Source: Calditrichota bacterium (lineage in GTDB: Bacteria > Calditrichota > Calditrichia > Calditrichales > J004). From it: a DNA stretch of 36,156 bases. A program made the position numbers and the translations under genes. The notes beneath the pieces were generated by a model. It did no database searches. It was not told where the DNA came from and was given only the letters and a program-made list of their open reading frames with translations. Each line of letters starts with the position of its first letter. Position 1 is the first letter of the stretch. Shown piece after piece: positions 1,966 to 11,882 of this stretch. Where the stretch lies: assembly GCA_003696775.1 (NCBI GenBank), contig RFFS01000148.1, positions 1-36,156 of the forward strand, written 5' to 3'.

Positions 1966-2749
1966 ACTGTTCCCTGCTGATATGATGAGCGACAATTTTT
2001 CTGCTTTTACCGTTGCGTTCATCGTAATCCACAAAAACAGCGCTGATTTTGGGATTACGGTGCGCCAGTTTAAAATATTTCAAATGCTGTGTACGAAAGC
2101 GTTTAACGGCTGTTTCCGGTTCCATGCCGATCACACTGTCCGCCGCGCCTGTCATCCCCGCATCCGTGATATAGGCGGTGCCCAGGGGCAAAATTCGCGC
2201 ATCGGCGGTTTGCACATGGGTATGTGTACCGAAAATCGCGGTTACCTTACCGTCAAAATTCCAGGCAAAGGCCAGTTTCTCCGCGGAGGCTTCGGCATGA
2301 AAGTCCACCACAATATGTTTATAACGCTGTTGGTAATGTTTCAACAAGTCATCCATTTTTTGAAAAGGACAATCAATCGGCGGTAAAAAACTACGCCCTT
2401 GTAAATTGATCACCAATAAAGAGTGCTCCTTCTTCTCGATGGCCATCACACCTTCACCCGGATTACCTGCCGGATAATTGGCCGGGCGCAATGTTTTAAA
2501 ATCCGGATGATTGAGCACTTCATGACTGTTGCGTTGAAAGCTGTGGTTGCCGCCGGTTATCACATCCGCGCCGGCTTTTAATAGTTTTTCCGCCTGTTGT
2601 TTGTTGATGCCTTTACCCTGATCGGCGTTTTCTCCGTTTACGATGCAAAAGGCGCAACCGTAATCACGGATCATGCGAGGAATCAGGTCACGGGCAATGT
2701 GCAGTCCGATATCTCCGACAATATCACCGATAAATAACAATCTGGGCAT
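1940..2749 (-). CDS. ymdB: YmdB-family metallophosphoesterase (TIGR00282-like)
   Basis: 'LLFIGDIVGDIGLHIARDLIPRM', 'NGENADQGKGI', 'GGNHSFQRN', 'DFHAEASAEKLAFAW', 'FGTHTHVQTADARIL'; directly downstream of rny. Confidence 0.92.
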   Translation of the reverse strand: MPRLLFIGDIVGDIGLHIARDLIPRMIRDYGCAFCIVNGENADQGKGINKQQAEKLLKAGADVITGGNHSFQRNSHEVLNHPDFKTLRPANYPAGNPGEGVMAIEKKEHSLLVINLQGRSFLPPIDCPFQKMDDLLKHYQQRYKHIVVDFHAEASAEKLAFAWNFDGKVTAIFGTHTHVQTADARILPLGTAYITDAGMTGAADSVIGMEPETAVKRFRTQHLKYFKLAHRNPKISAVFVDYDERNGKSRKIVAHHISREQYDAKGLIA

Positions 2750-4302
2750 CAGGCGTAATCCACGGAACGGAATTCACGTAAGACATGCACCTTGACACAT
2801 TGGTTGCTATTGTCCAGCACATCCTTGATTTTATGGGTTATATCGGTGGCCAGTTTATTGCTCATGGCGTCATCTGCTTTGGTATGATCGATAATGATGC
2901 GGATTTCACGCCCGGCCTGAATGGCATAGGCCGTTTTCACGCCTTCAAAATTATCCGCCACTTCTTCAAGATTTTTCATGCGTTTAACGTAATTTTCAAT
3001 AACATCACGCTGGGCGCCCGGTCGTTTGCGGCTTAACTCGGCGGCGATACGAATGATAATGGCTATGGGTGAATGCGCCTCGGCGCGATTGCCAAAGGCC
3101 AGCACGGCGTTTGTGACCTTGGGGTGTTCGTTATATTTTTTTAAAAATTCATGTCCCACCTTGGTATAATCGGATTCATTGGCTTTTTGTATCACAAGAC
3201 CGATTTTATGCAGCATTCCCGCCCGCCGGGCCAGAGGGGCATCCAATCCCAGTTGCGCGGCGATGATCCCGGAAAGTTCGGCGACTTCCTTGCAATGATC
3301 CAGTACATTTTGTCCGTAGGAGGTGCGGTATTTTAATTTCCCAAGTGCCTTGAGGACATCCGGATGCAAGCCGTGGATACCGATTTCATGACAGGCCTGT
3401 TCACCAATTTCCTGAAAAGTTTCATCGATTTCTCGGACAACCTTCTCGTAAGTTTCTTCTATGCGTCCCGGATGAATCCGGCCGTCGCTGACCAGGCGTT
3501 CCATGGTCACTTTGGCTAACTCTCGGCGATACGGATCAAAAGAACTGAGCAACACCGCCTGAGGGGTATCATCCACAATCACATCCACACCGGTAACGAT
3601 TTCAAAAGCGCGTATGTTACGCCCTTCCTTACCGATAATGCGCCCTTTCATGTCATCCGAAGGTAAGGTCACATTGGAGATGGTCGATTCGATGGTATGG
3701 CTGGAAACGATCTGTTCCATGGATGTAAGCAAGATATTTTTGGCTTCGCTGTAGGCGTTTTCTTCCGCTTCTTTTTTAATTTGGAAAACCTTATGCGCCG
3801 TTTCTTTTTTCGCCTCGTCAATCAGGTTATCCATCAGTTGTTGTTTGGCGGCCTCGCTGGAGAGTCCGGAAATGGTCTCCAGTTTCCGGTTAGCCTCATT
3901 GATGGCTTCTTCCAGATTTTTTTGACGTATATTTAGTGCGTTTTCCCGTGCTTTTAATTCCTGCTCAATCGCCAGGAGTTCTTTTTCCTTTTTGGCAACC
4001 AAATCCGCTTTTCGGTCAATGTTGCTGTCTTTGTTGGCCAATTCCGATTCAAGACGATGCAGTTCGTTTTTCTTTTCGCGGTATTCATCTTCCATCTGTT
4101 GTTTTTGCTGGAAGATCTCCTCATTGGCCTCGAGCAGTTTTTCTTTTTTCAGGCCTTCTATTTCGGTTTCCGCTTCGGAAATAATCGACTCGGCTTTTTT
4201 ACTGGCGGTTGCCAGACTGCGTTTACCCAAGGCGGCGTTGGTCAGCCAGCCTGCCAGGAAACCCACGGCAAGAAGAATGATGAATAAAACGATTTCTAAC
4301 AC
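2749..4302 (-). CDS. rny: Ribonuclease Y
   Basis: N-terminal TM, long coiled coil, KH 'GRIIGKEGRNIRAFEIVTGVDVIVDDTPQAVLLSSFDPYRRELAKVTMERLVSDGRIHPGRIEE', HD domain. ORF track starts at TTG 4317, but AAGGAG there is a good Shine-Dalgarno for GTG 4302. Confidence 0.95.
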   Translation of the reverse strand: MLEIVLFIILLAVGFLAGWLTNAALGKRSLATASKKAESIISEAETEIEGLKKEKLLEANEEIFQQKQQMEDEYREKKNELHRLESELANKDSNIDRKADLVAKKEKELLAIEQELKARENALNIRQKNLEEAINEANRKLETISGLSSEAAKQQLMDNLIDEAKKETAHKVFQIKKEAEENAYSEAKNILLTSMEQIVSSHTIESTISNVTLPSDDMKGRIIGKEGRNIRAFEIVTGVDVIVDDTPQAVLLSSFDPYRRELAKVTMERLVSDGRIHPGRIEETYEKVVREIDETFQEIGEQACHEIGIHGLHPDVLKALGKLKYRTSYGQNVLDHCKEVAELSGIIAAQLGLDAPLARRAGMLHKIGLVIQKANESDYTKVGHEFLKKYNEHPKVTNAVLAFGNRAEAHSPIAIIIRIAAELSRKRPGAQRDVIENYVKRMKNLEEVADNFEGVKTAYAIQAGREIRIIIDHTKADDAMSNKLATDITHKIKDVLDNSNQCVKVHVLREFRSVDYA

Positions 4303-4322
4303 TTTTTTCTCCTTCAAAAACT

Positions 4323-4487
4323 AAAAAAGCCCTGTCTCGACATACTAAAAAAGGGACCGGATTGAAGTACGGTGGGCACCTCCTGACTGCGTCATGCTTC
4401 CTCATTTAAGTGGCTTGCAATATTCAGCCAGAGCCAGTTCCCTGATTTAATGGTGTTGGTCCATTTAAATATGTAGAGTACAGGGCT
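4323..4487 (-). ncRNA. ssrS: Candidate 6S RNA (SsrS-like)
   Basis: Intergenic zapA-rny. The ends form a long closing stem, AGCCCTGT-A-CTC-T-ACATA with TATGT-C-GAG-ACAGGGCT, followed by TTTTTT. An inner GGACC/GGTCC stem flanks a large unpaired centre. Position next to zapA matches known ssrS loci. Confidence 0.7.
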
Positions 4488-4510
4488 ATATTTCAGTTTA
4501 TTCTAATTTT

Positions 4511-4798
4511 TTATTCTTCCAATAGCTCCGAAATTTTATGGTTCATTTTGCGTGCTTCTTCATTCAGTTGTTCCAGTAAACGTTCGCGGTATTGTCTTTC
4601 CTGATACAACTCTTCCGCTATGTTTAAGGCGGTAAGAATGGCTATCCTGCTGATGGAACTAATATTTGTCGAACGATCGATTTCACGCATTTTTTTATCG
4701 ACGTATTCCGCAATTTGTTTGACGGAGGCGTCATCTTCATCGCCAATAAGCGAGTATTCCGAACCAAAAATATTTACTTTGATGTGTCCCGGAGCCAT
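4511..4798 (-). CDS. zapA: Cell division protein ZapA-like
   Basis: 'IKVNIFGSEYSLIGDEDDASVKQIAEYVDKKMREI...SRIAILTALNIAEELYQ' is the typical ZapA pattern. Confidence 0.9.
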   Translation of the reverse strand: MAPGHIKVNIFGSEYSLIGDEDDASVKQIAEYVDKKMREIDRSTNISSISRIAILTALNIAEELYQERQYRERLLEQLNEEARKMNHKISELLEE

Positions 4799-11561: not shown

Positions 11562-11599
11562 TGCGCTTCCTTATGCGTTACAAAGCGGTTCAATTCAAG

Positions 11600-11673
11600 T
11601 GGGACGAGAGAGATTCGAACTCACGACCTCTACGATGTCAACGTAGCGCTCTAACCAACTGAGCTATCGCCCC
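11600..11673 (-). tRNA. tRNA-Val (anticodon GAC)
   Basis: GGGGCGATAGCTCAGTTGGTTAGAGCGCTACGTTGACATCGTAGAGGTCGTGAGTTCGAATCTCTCTCGTCCCA folds as a cloverleaf; anticodon loop TTGACAT. CCA is not encoded. Confidence 0.95.
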
Positions 11674-11688
11674 AAAAAACAAGCGCAC

Positions 11689-11717
11689 AATTTAACTTAT
11701 AAAGCCAGTAAAATCAA
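11689..11717 (-). promoter_or_regulatory. Putative sigma70 promoter for tRNA-Val (and thrS?)
   Basis: TTGATT - 17 nt - TAAATT upstream of the tRNA-Val 5' end. Confidence 0.45.
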
Positions 11718-11762
11718 TATTTTTAAGAGTTTTATCCGCCTTAAGTTGCGCGCGTTTCAGAC

Positions 11763-11794
11763 AAAAAAAAACCCCAAGGGAAAACCTCAGGGTT
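11763..11794 (-). terminator. Intrinsic terminator after tRNA-Tyr
   Basis: AACCCTGAGG-TTTTC-CCTTGGGGTT (10 bp including two G-U) followed by a long T-run. Confidence 0.8.
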
Positions 11795-11798
11795 AAAG

Positions 11799-11882
11799 TG
11801 GGGAGAGAAGGATTCGAACCTCCGAAGGCACTTGGCCGACAGATTTACAGTCTGTTGCGTTTGACCGCTCCGCAATCTCCCC
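11799..11882 (-). tRNA. tRNA-Tyr (anticodon GTA)
   Basis: GGGGAGATTGCGGAGCGGTCAAACGCAACAGACTGTAAATCTGTCGGCCAAGTGCCTTCGGAGGTTCGAATCCTTCTCTCCCCA; class II tRNA with long variable arm, loop CTGTAAA. CCA is not encoded. Confidence 0.96.

Follow-up and report, generated by a model that had tools for sequence, protein, structure and literature searches.

Positions 4321-4489 of the window (the whole 36,156-nt stretch of Calditrichota DNA analysed here) almost certainly carry, on the minus strand, the single-copy 6S RNA gene (ssrS) of this bacterium, a reading to which we assign a probability of about 0.97. The gene, whose limits include the terminal U run, lies in the gap between zapA (4511-4798; Pfam PF05164, 2.3e-19) and rny, which encodes RNase Y (2749-4317; Pfam PF12072, PF01966 and PF00013; 3.4e-45), both also on the minus strand, so that Pfam bears out the flanks named by the sequence-only reading. 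Genes for a ZapB-like protein and pheT lie upstream of the zapA/rny pair, and ymdB lies downstream. No open reading frame of at least 80 amino acids fills the interval, and the gap stays unexplained at standard thresholds because a default Rfam scan at gathering scores reports nothing at the locus; across the window such a scan returned two tRNAs only. Elsewhere in the window, thrS is preceded by minus-strand genes for tRNA-Val(GAC) and tRNA-Tyr(GTA) at 11599-11882.

When the locus was scanned by E-value, the 6S family model RF00013 matched positions 4325-4489 over its full length (model positions 1-187 of 187; 40.2 bits, E 1.1e-6). The curated gathering score of this family is 46.4 bits, and since the match falls 6.2 bits under that cut-off, the default scan misses it. 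A search of the entire genome (3.25 Mb, 97% complete), in which this match has E 1.4e-6, gave no other RF00013 match even at E <= 10. Among related genomes, RF00013 exceeded its cut-off in 23 of 61 and gave a match at E <= 1 in 38 of 61. Scores in relatives from the window's order (G009, G014) and class reached or exceeded the cut-off (46.4-72.6 bits), whereas the window sequence and seven of eight further loci from close relatives lay systematically below it when rescanned with relaxed filters (33-45 bits); the remaining locus, L043, had no match with an E-value of 0.5 or lower in that rescan. Weak matches to RMST_4, snoZ256 and VR-RNA in the E-value scan of the locus were set aside as chance.

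The RNA has the layout of a 6S RNA, with a closing stem, a central bubble and an apical arm. Its 5' arm (4470-4487) and 3' arm (4328-4344) form a closing stem of 16 bp in total, in which AGCCCUGU (4487-4480) pairs with ACAGGGCU (4335-4328), followed beyond a bulged A by CUC/GAG and beyond a U/C mismatch by ACAUA/UAUGU. An inner strand GGACC (4462-4458), which adjoins the bubble, pairs with GGUCC (4358-4354). The interrupted end pairing that runs into a T run, and the internal GGACC/GGTCC stem, are thus present exactly where they had been read by eye (4323-4487), and the spans of both covariance model matches agree with those limits. The 5' strand of the bubble, AACACCAUUAAAUCA, occupies 4443-4457 and its 3' strand, unpaired against it in the consensus, 4359-4373; the apical arm, GGGAACUGG...CAGGAGGUGCCC with the conserved internal UUGCAAGCC...GGAAGCAU, spans 4374-4442. 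G-C pairs flank the bubble at both ends, the inner stem at one and, at the opposite one, GGG/CCC, which is paired in 26-27 of the 27 aligned sequences. The minimum free energy of the RNA was -58.4 kcal/mol, compared with -38.9 +/- 4.3 for 200 dinucleotide shuffles (z -4.5; 0/200 as low), and in this single-sequence fold part of the bubble and apical arm pairs differently from the consensus. Directly after the closing stem comes a U run (4328-4323), resembling that of an intrinsic terminator and present also in relatives of the same phylum. Stem and U run together probably end the transcript as well; a default terminator scan missed this 3' end because the closing arms lie far apart.

Comparison across relatives argues strongly for this structure. 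In a plain MAFFT alignment of 27 sequences, not fitted to the structure, two-sided changes occurred in 15 of the 27 consensus pairs, and 97.1% of cells were paired, as against 90.5% when the 3' letters were shuffled and 32-49% when partners were slid by 1-3 columns. None of the shuffles reached any of five covariation measures. All four apical-arm helices of the consensus structure showed two-sided changes, and the outer seven pairs of the closing stem covaried. Its variable part is poorly alignable and was therefore tested without an alignment: each genome's own 5' and 3' arms paired with a mean energy of -14.3 kcal/mol, whereas partners permuted across genomes gave -6.8 (sd 0.7). No permutation in 10,000 did as well, a figure that is not a strict probability because the sequences are related, even though the effect size is clear. 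The inner stem varied among relatives as GGACC/GGUCC, GGACC/GGUUC, GAACC/GGUUC and GGAUC/GAUUC. With these controls far lower than the real alignment, the proposed arrangement of closing stem, bubble and apical arm holds, as does the 6S identity when the full-length family match and linkage to zapA are added.

We built a covariance model, R1, from the sequences of 27 relatives, the window sequence among them; it matches the window at 4321-4489 with 154.3 bits, a score earned by a training member. Of the 41 genomes of the phylum, 38 hold a single R1 copy each; all 24 with completeness of 90% or more and contamination of no more than 5% are among them, and the three genomes that gave no match are 76%, 88% and 81% complete. 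Because most of the searched genomes supplied sequences for the model, its scores are not independent evidence, unlike the RF00013 matches and the synteny. The window gene measures 165-169 nt, inside the range of about 160-200 nt usual for 6S RNAs, and this length together with the adjacency to zapA suits an ssrS locus, as had been suggested. The next-best R1 match in the window's own genome had an E-value of 2.5, so no second 6S RNA is detectable there by R1, just as RF00013 found none elsewhere. Blocks common to the gap RNA of relatives are GGACCAACACCAUUAAA, CAGGGAACUG, CUCUGG, UUGCAAGCC, GGAAGCAUGA, CAGGAGGUGCCCAC and a final CAGGG-U run. The zapA-6S gap at L041 (genome G016) contains two strong inverted repeats of hairpin-like form, GGGGACTGATAGCTATCAGTCCCC and another much like it; repeats of this type were not seen in the other gaps inspected.

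A search for RNase Y detected the protein in 41 of 42 genomes, and at all 30 rny loci examined zapA lies upstream on the same strand with a recognisable RNA in the gap. A second RNase Y-like protein (~40% identical) is encoded in the window's own genome (G000:C116:49269-50771) and in most genomes of the class. In L003 and L004, from other phyla, zapA, 6S and rny also stand together, with the difference that a 5-formyltetrahydrofolate cyclo-ligase gene, absent from that place in the window, lies between 6S and rny; in L005, from another phylum, 6S is followed by genes that resemble the same two downstream genes, judging from reading their translations only. The order in Escherichia coli K-12 is likewise zapA-ssrS-fau. 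Linkage of 6S RNA to zapA and/or ygfA/fau is frequent, not universal. That between ssrS and ygfA (fau) has been described as highly conserved (PMC4064990). Taken with the orders in L003, L004 and E. coli, this makes the window a variant of a known neighbourhood that lacks the folate gene at this place. The arrangement zapA-6S-rny is not universal either, because two Zixibacteria loci (L031, L032) have rny and gave no 6S match upstream by R1 or Rfam. Beyond its position directly downstream of zapA on the same strand, the window RNA shares with E. coli ssrS a full-length RF00013 match and a rod made up of a closing stem, a central bubble and an apical arm. It differs in its length (~165 nt versus 183), in having rny and not the folate gene fau/ygfA as its downstream neighbour, and in the bubble template sequence AACACC, which is conserved in the window's clade.

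In every relative the RNA immediately precedes rny in the same orientation, and its closing stem runs into a U run; these features could also be read as those of a cis-acting leader, in which the RNA would be no more than the RNase Y 5' UTR and the terminal stem and U run would control read-through. We consider this very improbable: the end-to-end match is to 6S, a folate gene and not rny follows the same RNA in more distant genomes (fau in E. coli), and a conserved structure sequestering the rny ribosome-binding site was not seen. A 6S role and a role as rny leader or attenuator are not mutually exclusive. It is conceivable, if rather unlikely, that besides acting as 6S RNA the transcript serves in this phylum as an attenuator, its terminator-like stem at a fixed site coupling the output of RNase Y to transcription of 6S or to the occupancy of 6S by polymerase.

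6S RNA captures the RNA polymerase holoenzyme through promoter mimicry and is released through synthesis of a short product RNA, or pRNA (PMC4227106, PMC9130861). By analogy with the family, the Calditrichota RNA would be an abundant and stable transcript, above all in stationary phase, and would mimic an open promoter, binding the primary-sigma holoenzyme when growth slows and holding it. On outgrowth, polymerase would initiate within the bubble, using its 5' strand (region ...GGACCAACACCAUUAAA...), and the resulting pRNA, predicted to be near 5'-AUGGUGUUGGUCC and complementary to ...GGACCAACACCAU..., would disrupt the bubble so that the enzyme is released. The role of the 5' bubble strand (4443-4457) as pRNA template is presumed from known 6S RNAs; the AACA with which this strand begins does not vary among the 27 aligned sequences. 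Refolding induced by pRNA is known from other 6S RNAs. When the presumed template strand was masked during folding, the 3' bubble strand of several distant relatives (G022, G024, G030) was predicted to form a hairpin, consistent with such refolding. In the window RNA, masking leaves the predicted 3'-strand hairpin unchanged, and we therefore claim no refolding for it. A minus-strand scan of the window found no convincing sigma-70 promoter upstream of 6S, and visual inspection of the 60 nt upstream in relatives revealed no shared promoter-like motif.

Structure alone does not prove which form of polymerase is bound. Ms1 RNA of Actinobacteria has a 6S-like shape and is structurally related to 6S, yet binds core RNA polymerase instead of holoenzyme (PMC9130861), and the window RNA could in principle be a 6S-like RNA of this or another type. 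The chance of this is, in our judgement, slighter still than that of a pure rny leader, given the sequence-and-structure match to RF00013 here, which exceeds the cut-off in relatives from the window's order and class, and a neighbourhood of the ssrS type and not the different one of Ms1; at the window locus Rfam returned no match to Ms1.

The literature searched, outside of which lay the main synteny survey (Wehner 2014), contained no report of 6S RNA for Calditrichaeota and nothing on 6S with RNase Y and zapA together. The locus is otherwise ordinary, and the understanding of 6S RNA is unchanged by it. What it adds is a well-supported 6S RNA in a little-studied bacterial phylum, along with the observation that the zapA-6S neighbourhood known from gammaproteobacteria reaches distant phyla, with rny as partner. 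Default Rfam thresholds miss 6S RNA in part of this clade, including every searched member of the window's own family, and the 27-sequence clade seed alignment could improve annotation.
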